From Candidatus Accumulibacter conexus (lineage in GTDB: Bacteria; Pseudomonadota; Gammaproteobacteria; Burkholderiales; Rhodocyclaceae): DNA of 64,000 nt. The stretch lies in contig JAGFNJ010000018.1 of NCBI GenBank assembly GCA_017592775.1, positions 1 through 64,000 of the forward strand, in the 5' to 3' direction. Each line of letters begins with the position of its first letter. Within the stretch, counting starts at the first letter, position 1. Positions 28,599-36,744 of this stretch are shown in pieces. The position numbers and the translations under genes were made by a program. The notes beneath the pieces were generated by a model. It saw only the letters and a list, made by a program, of their open reading frames with translations. It had not been told where the DNA came from and made no database searches.

Positions 28599-29753
28599 TC
28601 AATTGACCGTCGGCCGGTGGTTGGCGACTTCCTTCTCCGCTGTGGCCCAGTCGTCTGCCGGTTCGCCACCCTGAAACCGGCGCTGCTCGGCGATGTAGTA
28701 TGCCCTCTCACGAATCGCCTGCTCTCGATTTCGGCTGTCGGACACTTCCTCGCCCACCGTCATTGCCACCGCCCTGTCGGCGTTCGCAACTCCCCCATCA
28801 ACGTCGGCGCAGCCTGTTGGCTCGGGCGGGTCGACTTCGGGCTGCTCGCCCGGACGCTCCGATGTGTCCCGGTGAACGGGTGATCGGCCCGGGTTCGCAT
28901 CAATCGCACCACGCCCTGCGGGTGCTTCGTTCGCGGGGATCGATACCCCGATTGGCTCTGCCCGGGCAACGGTCACTGGACTTGGCACCGCCTCCGCCAA
29001 ACCAAGCGGCGTCGCCGGCAGTGGCTCTGTCAGCTTGTCGGCTCGCCCGGCAACGGCCGCCAATGCCTGCCGCTCCAGTGCCCGTGCCTCCCAGAGGAAG
29101 TTGCCGGCAACGAGAAGCGCGATTGCGAGGGGGTCGAACACGAAGATGATGACCAGGATCACGTACTTGACCGCCTGCTCCAGGGACACGTCGAACGCCT
29201 GTGAGACGTAGACAATCGGCCCGGCATGGGTGTGGATGGCGATCTCCTCGACGCGCAATCTTGGTAGTTCCACGTCCAGTTGCCGCAGGCGCCGGTTGAT
29301 CCGGTCCGCCTCAACCTTGAAGGCAGCCATCAGCTTCTGCCGCCCCTGCACGACGTTTGCGGGAAGGTTGGCAATCTGGGCGTCGATCTCCTTCTTGCGC
29401 GCCTCCAGTTTCGCCTTCTCCTCGACGAATGCCGCGACCAGAATCTGTTGCTGCTTGGTATCCTGGATCGCCCCCTGGAAAGCGGCCGACAGGTAGCCAA
29501 ACGCACCCGCAGAGGTGATGATCATCAACACCGCCGTCGCCAGAATCAGGTATGCGCGCAGCAGCCAGGGTACGGTGGTCCACCGCTTGTAGAGGAACGA
29601 GACGGTCACCACCTTGCCGACGTCGAGCGCCGCCGCCAATGCAATGATGATCGGATCGGCGCTGAAGAGACTCGAGAGACCAATGATCGAGATCCAGGTT
29701 CCGAGCCCCTCGATCAGGAACGCCGAGGCAAAGGTAAACAGGATCAGGACCAT
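28599..29753 (-). CDS. Membrane protein with coiled coil and C-terminal DUF2934
   Basis: The predicted 384-residue protein has two or three N-terminal transmembrane helices (about residues 1-105), a Lys/Glu/Arg-rich coiled-coil segment (about 115-180), another hydrophobic helix (AVKYVILVIIFVFDPLAIAL), a long low-complexity Pro/Ala/Glu linker, and a C-terminal REQAIRERAYYIAEQ...DDWATAEKEV segment that matches DUF2934. The topology recalls phage- or plasmid-encoded membrane proteins of unknown role. The start is uncertain: the ATG before VLILFTFAS has no clear ribosome site, and longer readings are unsupported. Confidence 0.7.
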   Translation of the reverse strand: MVLILFTFASAFLIEGLGTWISIIGLSSLFSADPIIIALAAALDVGKVVTVSFLYKRWTTVPWLLRAYLILATAVLMIITSAGAFGYLSAAFQGAIQDTKQQQILVAAFVEEKAKLEARKKEIDAQIANLPANVVQGRQKLMAAFKVEADRINRRLRQLDVELPRLRVEEIAIHTHAGPIVYVSQAFDVSLEQAVKYVILVIIFVFDPLAIALLVAGNFLWEARALERQALAAVAGRADKLTEPLPATPLGLAEAVPSPVTVARAEPIGVSIPANEAPAGRGAIDANPGRSPVHRDTSERPGEQPEVDPPEPTGCADVDGGVANADRAVAMTVGEEVSDSRNREQAIRERAYYIAEQRRFQGGEPADDWATAEKEVANHRPTVN

Positions 29754-30093
29754 GGGACGCAGACGAGTTCGGCGATCTGCCGAAGTGCAGCGTCGCAGCA
29801 GGCACGGTCCGTCCTGCCTGGCACTGCGGCGGCAGCGCACGACAGGGGCCCACTGCGCGCACCGCCGAGTCGGTCTCGCAACCGCAGTTGGCCGCTGCAT
29901 GCCGCTTGCCACCGCCGCAGACGACAGGTTGAAAAGCGGGACCACCGCGATGGCTGCCGGTAGCCGCCGGCGGCGGCAGTGAATCCCGGGCATCCGGGGC
30001 ACCCCATCGTCGCATGGTCGTGCGTGCCCGGCCGCCAAGGCCGGTCACGCACGGCATGTCCGAGGGCGGCTTCGCGGCAGTCCTCGCGCAGCA
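29754..30093. other. Intergenic region between DUF2934 gene and glgB
   Basis: The 340-bp gap lies downstream of glgB and upstream of the DUF2934 gene, both on the minus strand. It contains the long hairpin listed at 30019-30053. Readings on either strand show no ribosome site or domain. Confidence 0.5.
30019..30053 (-). terminator. Hairpin after glgB, possible terminator
   Basis: CGTGCGTG (30019-30026) pairs with CACGCACG (30046-30053), and CCGGCC (30028-30033) with GGCCGG (30039-30044), giving 14 paired bases with one mismatch and a 5-nt loop. It starts about 40 nt beyond the glgB stop. There is no T-run, so intrinsic termination is not certain. Confidence 0.45.
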
Positions 30094-32265
30094 TCAGGCC
30101 CTCAGAGCCAGGACGACGCCGGCAAGCGGCGGCACGGTGATGGACAGTGAGTACGGGCGGCCCATCCACGGCACATCCTCGGCAACGAGTTGCCGATCGC
30201 TGTTGCCCACATCGCCGCCGCCGTAGAAATGCGAATCCGAGTTGAGGACCTCCCGGTAGCTGCCCGGTTGCGGCACGCCGATGCGGTAATCCATACGCGG
30301 GACAGGCGTGAAGTTGATGATCACCACGACGAACTCGTCGCCAGCCTTGCGGACAAAACTCAGGATCGACTGTTGCGAATCGTGGCAATCGATCCACTCG
30401 AATCCCTGCCACTCGAACTCGTTTCCATGCAGGGCCGACGAGCCGCGATACAGCTGATTGAGATCCTTCACCAGCGTCTGCATGCCGAGATGCAACGGAA
30501 ACTCCAGCACATACCAGTCGAGAACCCCGGCGCTGTTCCACTCCAGACCTTGGCCGAACTCGGTGCCCATGAACAGGAGCTTCTTGCCCGGATGCGTGAA
30601 CATGTAGGTGTAGAGCAGTCGGAGATTGGCGAAACGCTGCCATTCGTCGCCGGGCATGCGGTTGATCATCGAGCCCTTGCCATGCACCACTTCGTCATGC
30701 GAGAAAGGCAGCATGAAGTTCTCTGAAAACGCGTAGAGCATGCTGAAGGTGAGCAGGTCATGATGGTACTGGCGGTAGATCGGCTCCTGCCCCATGTAGC
30801 GCAGGGTATCGTTCATCCAGCCCATGTTCCACTTGATGTCGAAACCCAGTCCGCCAATGTAGGTCGGGCGCGTCACCTGCGGCCAGGACGTCGATTCCTC
30901 GGCGATGACCAGCGTGCCGGGAGCTTCCGTGTGGGTCGTGGCGTTGAGTTGGCGCAGGAAGTCGATCGCTTCGATGTTCTCCCGGCCGCCGTATTCATTC
31001 GGCACCCATTCGGTGCGCGAATAATCGAGATAGAGCATCGAAGCGACGGCATCGACGCGCAAACCGTCGAGATGGAACTCGTCAAGCCAGTAAACGGCGC
31101 TGGAAATGAGGAAGTTCTTCACCTCGTTGCGACCGAAATTGAAGATCAGCGTCGACCAGTCCAGATGTTCGCCCTTGCGCGGATCCTCGTGCTCATAGAG
31201 CGCCGTGCCGTCGAAGCGCGCCAGTGCATGGGCATCCTTGGGAAAATGGGCGGGAACCCAGTCGAGAATCACGCCGATATCGTTCTGGTGGCAGAGATCG
31301 ACGAAATGGCGAAAGTCGTCGGGGGTGCCGAAACGGCTGGTCGGCGCAAAATAGCCGGTGACCTGGTAGCCCCACGACTGATCGAACGGATGCTCGGTGA
31401 CCGGCAGGAGCTCGATATGGGTGAAGCCCATCCGGTTCACATACTCGACCAGTTGTCTCGCCAACTCGCGGTAGTTGAGGAATTCCCCTTCATATCCACG
31501 CTGCCAGGAGCCGAGATGGACCTCATAGGTGGACATCGGCGCATGCTGCCAGTCGGCCGCCGCGCGCCGCTCCATCCAGGCGGCGTCCTGCCAGACGTAG
31601 GTCGAGCGAGGACTGACGATCGATGCATTGCCCGGCCGCATCTCGAAGCGCCGGCCGTAGGGATCGGATTTGGTCAGCACCTCGCCGCTGTTCCGGTTCC
31701 TGATCTCGAAGCGATAGAAGATGCCGGGGGCGATATCGGGAATGAACAGCTCCCATACCCCGCTTCCCGGACGCACGCGCATCGGGTGGCGACGACCGTC
31801 CCAGTGATTGAAGTCGCCGAGGACGCTCACACGCTCTGCATTGGGCGCCCAGACGGCGAACAGGATGCCGGCGACGCCGTCAATCTCCTGTTCGTTTGCC
31901 CCCAGGAAGTTGTAGGCGTGGCTGTGCCTGCCCTCGCCGAAGAGGTGCAGATCGAAATCCGTCAGCTGCGGCAGGTAGGTATAGGGGTCGTGGGCAATAT
32001 GGTCGTGATGCCAGGTATCGCGCCAGATCAGGCGGTAGTGTTCCGGAAGGTTCTTGCCGGAACCCTGCCATTCGAAAAAGTCGGAACCCGGAATACGTGC
32101 CAGCGGCAAATTGCCTTCGGCGATGGACACTTCAGTCGCGTGCGGGATGTAGGCCCGCACGACGACGCCTGCAGCACAAGGATGCCTGCCCAGGACCGAA
32201 AACGGATCGTGGTGGCGCGCTTCGGCGATGCGGATCAGTTCGTCATTCAACCTGGTTTCTAACAT
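30094..32265 (-). CDS. glgB: 1,4-alpha-glucan branching enzyme
   Basis: The 723-residue GH13 enzyme makes alpha-1,6 branches in glycogen. It has an N-terminal CBM48 pair, then the catalytic barrel with nucleophile D405 ([18 protein letters not shown]), acid/base E456 ([10 protein letters not shown]) and [12 protein letters not shown]. Length matches the E. coli-type enzyme. GGAAGGAAG precedes the ATG. The large debranching fusion gene ends 79 nt upstream on the same strand, so the two probably form one glycogen operon. Confidence 0.98.
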
Positions 32266-32344: not shown

Positions 32345-35300
32345 TCAGGCAGCGCTCCGCAGCAACCACACGACCGACCATGGCAGCAGGCGCCCTTGCG
32401 TCAGCGCATGATCGGCCTCTCCCGGCTCGGCCCAGAGGACTGCACCAGCCGGCCGTTGCAGGCCCTCAAGTGGAACGCCGCTGTAGTTCGCCAACAGGGT
32501 CAGGAGCGAGTCGTCGCCGAGCGTCCACCGGATCGACAGGCCGCGCCCCCCGATCAAGCTATGCCGAACGGTCTCTTCATGCATGCCAGTCAACCGCGGA
32601 CAGATCTCGCGGCGGCGAACGGCCAGTAGCCGGCGATGGAAATCGAGCCAGTCAGCATGCGGTGACTGGCGAACGCTGTTCCAGTCGAGTTTGCAGCGCT
32701 GAAATGTGGCCGGATCCGTTGGGTCCGGAATGCGCGCCCGCGTCCTGGCCGTGCGAAACCCCTGCAGATGGGCAAAGGACTTGCGCCGGTTGGCTGCGAG
32801 GTTCTTGACCAGATCCGGGTTGAAGTCGCAAAAATACAGGAACGGCTGCGCGGCGGCGAACTCTTCGCCCATGAACAGCGCCGGCGGCATGGGTGCCAAC
32901 AGAGAGGTCGCCACCAGCGCGCCCAGCGGCCGCGCTGGGGTCAACTGGTGTAGACGTTCGCCGAGTGCCCGGTCGCCGATTCGCGCGTAGTCCTGCAGGA
33001 AGGTCACGAAAGCGGTGGGCAACAGGCGATCCGGACCGCCGTCGACAAACCCACGGCTCAGGCAGGCGCCCAACTGGTCAAGCGGCCGGGCGGTGCCGAC
33101 CGCACCTGCCGATGCACCGGTCAACACTTCCTGCATCGCCTGCTGGGCGGCGTCATTCCAGACGGCTTCATAACGGCGCGGAGCGCTGTGATCATGCCAA
33201 TGGAGATAGCGGGCAGCCCGCTGATCATGGCCCAGCAGCAGGTGGCAATGGCGGTGCTTGCCGGGCCCCTCACGAACCGCGTCGGCGAGCGCCTCCAGCA
33301 GATCGAGCTCACCCGCGTTTTCCTGCAGCAAGGCCGCATTCAGGCGGAGACCATCGAGATGGAACTCCTCCAGCCAGTACAGTGCATTGTGGATGAGGAA
33401 TTCGCCGGCGACCGCCAGCAAGACGTCGATGCTCCTGCCGGCGAGATCGGTCGTGCGTGGGGCGAAGAACGCCGGCGCGTAAACAGACAGGTAATTGCCC
33501 TCTGGCCCGAAGTAGTGACAGGCGAGATCAAGCAGGACCATCAGTCCCTTGTGGTGGGCGGTCTGAACCAGATCCTTCAGCTCGTCCGGGTGGCCATAGC
33601 TGGCGGCAGGGGCAAATGGCAACACGCCGTCGTAACCCCAGTTGTGTGCCCCGGCAAAGGCACCGACCGGCAGCAGTTGAATCGCCGTCACGCCCAGTTC
33701 CACCAGATGATCCAGTCGTTCCCTGACTGCCGCGAAGGTACCCTGCACGGTAAAGGCGCCAACATGCAGCTGATAGATGATCGCTTCCTCCCAGGGCCGG
33801 CCCCGCCAGTTGCGGTCGGTCCAGACGAACCGACCCGGCTCGATCACCTGGCTGGCGCCATGTACACCCTGGGGATTGTAACGGGAGGCCGGATCGGGGA
33901 CTTCACCAAGACCATCGATCCGATAGCGGTAGAGGTCATCCACCGTCGCCTCATCGCTCGTCAGTTCGTACCAGCCCGCTTCCCTGGCTTCCATCGGCAG
34001 GAGGACGGCGCCAGCCCCCGCTTTCTGCAGTGCAACGTCCACCCGTTCGGCCGCTGGCGCCCAGAGGCGAAAGCGCACCCGCCCACCTTCGAGCACTTGC
34101 GCACCGAAGGGCATGAAATAGCGCCGGCGCAGTAGCGGCTCCGCCACTTGGCCGGCCTGGCGCCGCTGTGTCAGCAGCGCCAGCGAACGGCCCTGCAGTC
34201 GATAGGAGGGGTCGCTGACCCGCCGCAGCTCGCCGCATTCGACCAGAGCGGTATCGACCACTAACTCGCTGTCGCCCTTCCACGGCAGCGTGAAGCGAAT
34301 CGGCTCGTGGTGGCCATTCAGCAGCAGCAGGAAATCATCGTCCTTGGCCCACTGCCCGCGTTCATCCTGCTCTTCCAGGGCCTCGCCGATCAGGTACAGG
34401 CCGAAGCAACGGGCATGATGATGATCCCAGTCCTGATCGCTGATCTCGGCTGCGTCCGGATGCAGCCAGATGATGTCCCGGACGCCTGCGCCGCGGATAC
34501 GCTGCCCCTGGAAGAAGTGCCGCCGCCGCAGAGCCGGGTGCTTCCTGCGCAATTCGATCAGGCGGCGGGCAAACTCGAAAAGCTCCCGGTTGTCCGCCAT
34601 CCCGGCCAGATCCCAATCGACCCAGCTCAGTTCGTTGTCCTGACAGTAGGCGTTGTTGTTGCCGCGCTGGGTGCGTCCCATTTCATCGCCCGCCAACAGC
34701 ATCGGCACGCCTTGCGAGAGCAGCAGCGTCGCCAGCAGATTGCGTCGCTGCCGCTGCCTCAGCCGCAGCACCTCGGGGTCCGCCGTCTCGCCTTCGGCGC
34801 CGCAGTTCCAGCTGCGGTTGTGCGCGTCGCCATCGCGGTTGTCTTCCCCATTCGCCGCGTTGTGCTTTTCGTTGTGGCTGACCAGATCGTAGAGCGTAAA
34901 ACCATCATGGGCGGTGATGAAGTTGATGCTGGCATAGGGTCGGCGGCCACTGTGCTGGTACAGATCGCTGGAACCGGTGAGACGGTAGGCGAGCTGGCCC
35001 ATCAGCCCGCCCTGACCGCGCCAGTAATCGCGCACGACGTCCCGGTACTTGCCGTTCCACTCGGTCCAACCAACCGGAAAGTTGCCCACCTGATAGCCGC
35101 CATCGCCCAGATCCCAGGGCTCGGCAATCAACTTCACCTGCGACAGTACCGGGTCCTGATGAATGATGTCCATGAAGGCGCCGAGCTGATCCACTTCGTG
35201 CAGCTCCCTGGCCAGGGCGGCTGCCAGATCGAAGCGGAAACCATCGACGTGCATCTCGATGACCCAATACCGCAGGCTGTCCATGATCAGCTGCAGCACC

Positions 35301-36274
35301 CGCGGATGCATCATGTTCAGGGTATTGCCACAGCCGGTGTAGTCCATGTAGTAACGGGGAGCGCCGGCCACCAGACGATAGTAGGCGGCATTGTCAATGC
35401 CGCGGAAGCACAGCGTCGGCCCCAGATGGTTGCCTTCGGCGGTGTGGTTGTAGACCACATCCATGATGACTTCGATACCGGCTGCGTGCAGGGTCTTGAC
35501 CAGATGCTTGAATTCGTCGAGACGACCGCTGGCGGAATAGCGCGGGTCAGGGGCGAAGTAGCCGATTGAATTGTAGCCCCAGTAATTCTTCAGCCCCCGT
35601 TCCAGGAGATGGCGGTCGTCGACAAAGGTCTGTATCGGCAGGAACTCCACCGCGGTGATGCCCAGACGCTTGAGATGGTCGATGACCGGCGGGGTGCTCA
35701 GCCCGGCATAGGTGCCGCGCAGCTCGGGCGGCACATGCGGGTGCAGGCGGGTGAAGCCCTTGACGTGCAGCTCGTAGATGACGCTTTGGTGCCAGGGAAC
35801 ATTGGGGCGGCGGTCCCCGTCCCAGTCGAAAGCGGGATCGATCACCTGGCACTTGAACATGCGGGGTGCGCTGTCGCGCCGGCTGAAGCTCAAGTCCTCG
35901 CGCGGACTGCCGATGCGGTAACCGAACTGGGCATCGCTCCATTCGATGGCGCCGACAATCCCTTTGGCGTAGGGGTCGAGCAGCAGCTTGTGGGGGTTGA
36001 AGCGGTGCCCTTCCTCTGGCCGATAGGGCCCATGGACGCGGTAGCCGTACAGTTGCCCCGGGCGCACTGCAGGCAGATACGCATGCCAGATCTGGTCGGT
36101 CTTCTCGGCCAGCTCGATGCGCTGCTGTTCCTGTCGCCCGCTGTCGTCGAACAGGCACAACTCGACCTTGTCCGCGTGCTCCGCGAAGATTGCGAAATTG
36201 ACCCCTTCCCCGTCCCAGGTGGCGCCCAGGGGATACGGTCTGCCAGGCCAGACTGCCGTCAGCGCTTCAGACAT
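32345..36274 (-). CDS. glgX: Fusion of glycogen debranching enzyme GlgX with a catalytically degenerate TreZ-like half
   Basis: One open frame encodes 1309 residues. Residues about 1-715 are a complete GlgX/isoamylase-type GH13 enzyme with nucleophile D349 ([11 protein letters not shown]), acid/base E385 (LIAEPWDLG), D457 ([10 protein letters not shown]) and [10 protein letters not shown]. Residues about 716-1309 align in order and length with maltooligosyltrehalose trehalohydrolase: [21 protein letters not shown], then [15 protein letters not shown]. In this second half all four GH13 catalytic regions are changed: DLACHY for DVVYNH, LRLN with N979 for the Asp nucleophile, LLLGHD with G1015 for the Glu, and DYARIG with A1097 for NHDQIG. 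It is therefore probably a non-catalytic domain. The ATG of MSEALT is used; an ATG five codons earlier is possible, and neither has a strong ribosome site. Confidence 0.92.
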
Positions 36275-36744
36275 GGCCGCAGGCACCATGAGCCGGCGAA
36301 GCCGGAAGCAGACGGGCGGTGCCGCTCAGGGGGAGCGGCTGATCCAGGCACATGCAGGCAAGTCCCTGACCAACGTTCTGAGCAACCCCGGCACGGGACC
36401 GGCGCACTCTCGACACTCTTTCCATCACCATCCGAACCAGTTTCCGGGGCATCGACGCCAACGCGCGGCGGTTCCAGCGAGCAACCCGGTCGTTTGTCCT
36501 GCGCGCCCGCCCGAACGACCGGCTCGCAGCCGACACCAGTCCGCCCGCGAGCAACGCAGCGAAGACGAAATCCCTGATGCCAATGGGTGAGATTGTACCA
36601 GCGCCCGACGCCCGTGCCCACAGGAGCTCTTCTTTCGACCTGTTGCATCATCGTCCAGAACGTGATTTTCGACACCTGGCGGACGGCTGAGCCGTGCGAA
36701 GATCAAACCCGTAGTCAGTCCATGCACAGACGAGGGAGTTGGCG
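36275..36744. other. Divergent intergenic region upstream of the glycogen operon
   Basis: The 470-bp gap separates the glgX fusion (minus) from a small secreted-protein gene (plus). It contains a perfect inverted repeat (36486-36522, listed separately) and should hold both promoters, which were not recognised. No gene is supported. Confidence 0.5.
36486..36522. repeat. 9-bp perfect inverted repeat upstream of glgX fusion
   Basis: CCGGTCGTT (36486-36494) and AACGACCGG (36514-36522) are perfect complements across a 19-nt spacer. The place, about 210 bp before the debranching gene start, allows an operator or a leader hairpin. Nothing further can be said. Confidence 0.35.

Follow-up and report, generated by a model that had tools for sequence, protein, structure and literature searches.

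A glgX-treZ fusion gene in Candidatus Accumulibacter with a TreZ half that is probably retained as a non-catalytic module

In the ISA1/ISA2 system of plants, catalysis resides in the ISA1 subunit, and either protein is destabilised without its partner (PMC3787081); non-catalytic effects and extra glucan sites have been proposed for this system, with one glucan site per ISA2 (PMC12510319). Fused glycogen enzymes with one domain described as inactive are found in the chlamydial GlgA-GlgB protein (PMC11046441), and in some pseudoenzymes the catalytic residues may have migrated (PMC10211241). A TreYZ route from glycogen to trehalose was deduced for Candidatus Accumulibacter phosphatis from the BLAST E-values of treX, treY and treZ in 59 metagenomes (PMC7778627). 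Low phosphate was reported to have no significant effect on glycogen branching-debranching, in a study whose text mentions neither trehalose nor glgX nor treZ and gives no expression value for the fusion gene described here (PMC12604563). No paper on an inactive trehalohydrolase was found in the literature search, and among the matches listed for GlgX/treX-TreZ fusions, non-catalytic GH13 proteins and glycogen debranching in Accumulibacter, no title describes this protein.

Ca. Accumulibacter is a genus of polyphosphate-accumulating bacteria of phosphorus-removing wastewater sludge. The stretch of DNA analysed here (the window) comprises 64,000 nucleotides of one contig of Candidatus Accumulibacter conexus, and carries an open frame in which a GlgX half is joined to a TreZ-like half:

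32345..36289, minus strand: glgX::pseudo-treZ fusion gene, 1314 amino acids from the first ATG, no internal stop
34169..36244, minus strand: GlgX half, TIGR02100 match, residues 16-707
32486..34078, minus strand: TreZ-like half, TIGR02402 match, residues 738-1268
30094..32265, minus strand: glgB, 723 amino acids, 79 bases downstream of the fusion

Translation of the fusion likely starts at an internal ATG (MSEALTAVW), yielding 1309 residues and agreeing with the N-termini in its relatives; the residue numbers of the earlier note were counted from this methionine, and are for this reason 5 lower than those of the 1314 numbering used here. The linker between both halves is short, without a long spacer. 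The same fused frame was detected in 9 further genomes of the genus, in one of which (G026) the copy ends at the contig end inside the GlgX half; the 10 genomes, whose TreZ half has lost its catalytic acids as described below, are called fused-dead. By score (1075.7 bits for the half alone, against a TIGR02100 cut-off of 640.9) and by motifs, the GlgX half is a full TIGR02100 member with predicted debranching activity. D354, E390 and D462, which we take to be its catalytic residues, are intact, and the GlgX motifs are identical or intact in 9/9 fused-dead genomes holding that stretch. A glgB gene adjoins the fusion in 6 of the 10 (the window, G024, G016, G022, G014 and G027). Just downstream of glgB in the window, at 28599-30038 on the minus strand, lies a protein with a C-terminal DUF2934 match that looks hydrophobic by eye. 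Contigs C13, C18, C29 and C2 of the source genome (L004-L007) encode three GlgB and two GlgX proteins, as well as a 697-aa GlgB-like GH13 protein (C2, L005) that falls under every cut-off listed, although on visual inspection its GH13 motifs seem complete. In a PADLOC scan of the fusion, the sole match was a GH13 protein named GlgB.

The match of TIGR02402 to the TreZ half spans positions 1-536 of 545. The half alone scores 495.9 bits, under the cut-off of 538.8, while the whole fusion passes it with 618 bits, the GlgX half alone cross-matching at 131.3 bits. Score-based pipelines may thus call the fusion a TreZ, an annotation that is misleading here since the TreZ half is without the catalytic acids. 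Pfam CBM_48 is still detected in this half (43.7 bits), and both the AlphaFold model and the PDB matches indicate that the TreZ fold is kept, so that the structure prediction suggested by the earlier note returned an intact fold. The half is an end-to-end homologue with a predicted TreZ fold and no catalytic acids. A joint model of the GlgX barrel and the dead half (1155 aa) was poor (pLDDT 59.5, pTM 0.55), with no interface visible, possibly because rows containing TreZ alone had been aligned to the GlgX half, and no conclusion is based on it.

The earlier note had claimed that the nucleophile, the acid/base, the NHDQIG block and the DVVYNH block are all changed in this half (N979, G1015, DYARIG with A1097, and DLACHY). 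Frame, length and residues were confirmed, and the changes in the 1314 numbering are as follows, together with a missing loop seen in the alignment of three fused-dead with four other rows:

33512..33529, minus strand: DLACHY replaces DVVYNH, residues 921-926
33338..33340, minus strand: N984 replaces the nucleophile Asp (DGLRLN-A); Asn in 10/10 genus genomes with the gene, Asp in 87/87 other rows
33230..33232, minus strand: G1020 replaces the acid/base Glu (LLLG-HD); Gly in 9/10 genomes and Ser in 1, Glu in 87/87 other rows
32984..32986, minus strand: A1102 replaces the third catalytic Asp (FLQDYA-RIG); Ala in 8/10 genomes and Ser in 2, Asp in 87/87 other rows
33020..33052, minus strand: site before the third Asp where some 16 residues, a loop of the YQGE..RGEPS type, are missing

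In the alignment with the solved relatives 3m07 and 2bhu, N984, G1020 and A1102 face GLRFDA/GLRLDA, the acid/base block and QNHDQ(I/V)G, columns that presumably are the GH13 nucleophile, acid/base and third acid; the titles of the D252 and E283 mutants of the Sulfolobus enzyme fit the assigned catalytic roles. The TreZ alignment comprised 102 rows, 15 of them fused-dead (the 10 genomes and the short contig L040) and 87 others, including 8 duplicates (79 distinct); partial repeats of the window's gene (L002, L003) and further repeats (L127-L130) had been left out. All three acids are absent in 10/10 genus genomes with the gene and in L040, versus 0/87 of the other rows, and this uniform loss across the 10 genomes excludes chance as the cause. 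The search for homologous fusions that the note had called for returned the same residue loss in every genus genome with the gene, and an intact set at shifted positions is ruled out by the alignment with solved and other TreZ, whose acids stand opposite the changed positions. As to L040 itself, it is a contig of only 3336 bases from a Methylococcaceae MAG with a fused-dead copy at 91% identity, and is probably stray, mis-binned Accumulibacter DNA.

The catalytic loss is wider than the four sites, reaching 18 conserved columns and the missing loop, which we infer to line the cleft. Among the 124 columns with ≥95% conservation in the 87 other rows, none of the 10 fused-dead genomes retains these 18, and all of them retain 88; 6/18 lost columns lie within 5 residues of the catalytic sites, with no significant concentration there (Fisher p 0.09). 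Moreover, at 23 columns the 10 fused-dead genomes all share a residue unlike that of at least 80% of other rows, D271N, H336Q, H340Q and E458S (half numbering) among them. In the region 266-282 (half numbering), 47% of the columns vary in the dead half versus 6% in intact TreZ.

Selection on the dead half was measured by pairwise dN/dS (Nei-Gojobori). Its median was 0.154, and that of the attached GlgX half 0.115 (36 pairs from 9 genomes in each case, the incomplete G026 being excluded). Elsewhere in the genus, the median was 0.116 in intact TreZ (36 pairs from 9 genomes) and 0.128 in GlgX encoded by its own gene (28 pairs from 8 genomes). The elevated dN/dS that the note had named as a sign of decay was thus not observed. 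Values for the dead half ranged from 0.116 to 0.225 across its 36 pairs, at a median dS of 0.83, and the frame is open in 10/10 fused-dead genomes. Constraint was further compared by sequence region, pooling the 10 fused-dead and 9 intact genomes. In cleft windows (140 codons), drawn after viewing the alignment and including the lost catalytic columns themselves, pooled dN/dS was 0.200 in the dead half (bootstrap 0.147-0.265) versus 0.050 in intact TreZ (0.027-0.080), and in the 446 non-cleft codons it was 0.155 versus 0.149. Outside the cleft, dead and intact values were 0.191 and 0.132 in the N-domain, 0.125 and 0.116 in the barrel, and 0.192 and 0.262 in the C-domain, with overlapping intervals in the three cases, and the fraction of variable N-domain columns was 0.43 versus 0.42. 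As constraint on the N- and C-terminal domains roughly equals that in intact TreZ, and does not exceed it, no single new functional surface is evident. This pattern of dN/dS is the one expected if catalysis ceased to matter while the fold still did. The stem branch of the fused-dead clade was 0.834 for TreZ versus 0.350 for the GlgX half (same 37 taxa, same model), a contrast that at the level of sequence reads as a burst of change near the catalytic loss, with constraint restored afterwards. The locus thus offers a clean comparison for an enzyme domain that has outlived its catalysis, with constraint dropped in the cleft alone and the intact TreZ of sister species as matched control.

The genus survey covered 28 Accumulibacter genomes: 10 fused-dead, 9 with an intact separate TreZ and 9 with neither. 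The gene is thus not universal in the genus, as no fusion or TreZ match was found in 9/28 genomes, 2 of which are <90% complete; a TreZ-profile match in one of these 9 (G007:C89:120555) is a distant GH13 frame, with a best match of 26% to GlgB, and is not TreZ. TreY was present in 9/9 intact-TreZ genomes and in 0 of the other 19, the genome search finding none in any of the 10 fused-dead genomes (the source genome G000 included), and as each of these is at least 93% complete, assembly gaps are an unlikely cause. OtsA was found in 0/28 genomes and TreS above cut-off in 10/28, namely 9/9 with intact TreZ and 1/10 fused-dead (G024). Where the stretch is long enough in intact-TreZ genomes, the gene order is glgX, treZ and then one long gene, with frames that touch or overlap, and this long gene in the one genome tested (G017) is a MalQ-TreY fusion with both parts over cut-off (MalQ 482 bits, TreY 1008.1 bits). 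These gene counts suggest that the TreYZ route inferred in PMC7778627 would be valid for part of the genus only, and the presence of intact TreZ and TreY in 9/28 genomes may matter for how phosphorus-removing sludge tolerates salt and uses glycogen. In the sequence collection, from which the best 80 of 587 relatives were taken, near copies at 80-90% identity belong to Candidatus Accumulibacter necessarius, vicinus and contiguus and to Accumulibacter sp. SCELSE-3; dead TreZ lineages may exist beyond those rows.

In the tree, the fused-dead TreZ copies form one clade (SH-aLRT 100) that branches outside the intact TreZ found in the same genus, which gives no support to an origin by mere decay of that intact TreZ, and the GlgX of the fused-dead genes is likewise separate from the genus's standalone GlgX. 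On the rpoB tree the fused-dead label requires 4 changes, so that loss or movement of the gene has taken place inside the genus (the rpoB of G015, in L177 and L179, is split into two frames, probably by a sequencing frameshift). The simplest reading would be that a glgX-treZ pair was imported from some donor, then fused and inactivated, these two steps and the disappearance of TreY following one another in any order. A genome of the same class (G119) carries an in-frame GlgX-TreZ fusion of 1415 codons (L186:3176-7420) that keeps the TreZ Asp, Glu and Asp and lies upstream of a TreY gene scoring 1021.7 bits (cut-off 498.65); a fusion of this type is therefore possible without catalytic loss. 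The GlgX half of the fusion in the window shares 70.5% identity with L186 GlgX, and 65-68% with the GlgX proteins encoded by their own genes next to intact treZ in Accumulibacter. In a tree built from TreZ only, L186 falls beside L185 and away from the dead clade; a joint grouping with the fused-dead rows is not rejected (p-AU 0.745). Descent of the dead clade from a fusion like that of L186 is possible, and L186 possibly represents an intermediate state. In the class (369 genomes), an E-value of 1e-165 is passed by the window and by 6 other genomes, the latter at 47-51% identity, and 6/6 keep the three acids, so that no second dead TreZ lineage was seen among those matches. Two other TreZ fusions were noticed, both with DGLRLDA and NHDQIG present: TreZ joined to a TreY-like part in the betaproteobacterium BP_11 (L059:6001-10731), and TreZ joined to a segment matching a MalQ-TreY reference in Azospirillum (L054:4336-9978).

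The half combines an enzyme fold (predicted), the absence of catalytic residues and purifying selection, as a pseudoenzyme does. Probably, a TreZ inactivated in the ancestor of the fused clade has persisted as a folded, non-catalytic module on an operon-type GlgX, and the genomes concerned have no TreY. Both the retained non-catalytic role and the maintained pseudo-enzyme proposed in the earlier note hold up, the former on the selection data and the latter on the same loss in homologous fusions, a low dN/dS, a fold predicted intact and the lack of TreY in all 10 genomes; glucan binding or scaffolding as the role remains a guess. In the proposed mechanism, catalysis by the TreZ half would have ceased before the fused-dead lineages diverged from their common ancestor, the half being today part of an operon-type GlgX in genomes lacking the trehalose partner TreY, and the folded module would have been retained on a debranching enzyme with intact catalytic motifs. 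By surfaces other than the old cleft, the dead module may then stabilise or oligomerise the GlgX half or position it on glycogen, much as the inactive ISA2 serves ISA1 in plants, the nearest working model; debranching would thereby be supported through stability, oligomerisation or tethering.

Binding through the cleft is made less likely than through other surfaces by its relaxed constraint, leaving as candidates the CBM48-like domain at the N-terminus, the outside of the half, or a role in structure alone. That the dead half grips glycogen chains, most likely by its CBM48-like N-terminal domain and not by the cleft, and so keeps GlgX on the polymer, is a possibility on the unlikely side: CBM_48 is still recognised, the cleft dN/dS of 0.200 is well below 1, and the glucan site proposed per ISA2 (PMC12510319) offers a precedent, but the cleft is relaxed, its loop is missing, and the N-domain is as variable as in intact TreZ, giving no hint of a new binding role. 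If instead the old active site had been remade for a new reaction or ligand, the 23 fixed columns and the migrated residues considered for some pseudoenzymes (PMC10211241) would find an explanation; we nevertheless give this very little credit, as dN/dS in the cleft reaches four times the intact-TreZ value, the third Asp has become Ala or Ser and the acid/base Gly or Ser, and the variability of region 266-282 resembles relaxation, not tight new selection.

It could also be that the half is idle itself, and is kept as structural ballast because its removal harms the folding or expression of GlgX. A constraint outside the cleft that equals that of intact TreZ without exceeding it, and the short stretch joining both halves, are in line with this frozen accident, but in 8 genomes of the genus GlgX is a full-length separate protein without such a half, and at a divergence of this size (median dS 0.83) a ballast would be expected to show relaxed surface loops and a relaxed C-domain, so that we consider it unlikely. 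That the dead domain is in ongoing decay, heading for loss, would agree with the disappearance of the catalytic residues and of the partner TreY. The frames open in 10/10 genomes and the dN/dS of 0.116 to 0.225 over 36 pairs, far below 1, contradict pseudogene decay and make this reading extremely improbable.

Among known systems, the half resembles TreZ in fold (malto-oligosyltrehalose trehalohydrolase, TIGR02402; solved as 2bhu and 1eh9, with 3m07 deposited as putative alpha amylase), from which it differs in lacking the three catalytic acids and the loop, in its fusion to GlgX and in that no TreY was found in the genome. With respect to GlgX/TreX (TIGR02100), the fusion adds a dead GH13 homologue of 600 residues at the C-terminus. 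L186 shares the single open GlgX-TreZ frame, but its TreZ acids are intact and TreY lies downstream, and the chlamydial GlgA-GlgB protein involves other enzymes, with an inactivation attributed to rearrangement and fusion (PMC11046441). The likeness to plant ISA1/ISA2 would lie in the pairing of an active GH13 debranching subunit with a catalytically dead GH13 homologue (PMC3787081, PMC12510319), and should the module shape glycogen debranching, it would parallel ISA2. We propose only tentatively, and with somewhat less than even confidence, that the fusion is a covalent bacterial counterpart of ISA1-ISA2, in which the loss of the trehalose route in polyphosphate accumulators with rapid glycogen cycling would have freed TreZ to become a non-catalytic debranching module; a trehalose operon would then have been converted into a tool of glycogen architecture. 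Whereas ISA2 is a debranching-enzyme paralogue on a separate chain, the dead partner here is no isoamylase or GlgX paralogue, being placed with TreZ by sequence and fold, and it is covalently joined to GlgX in one frame.
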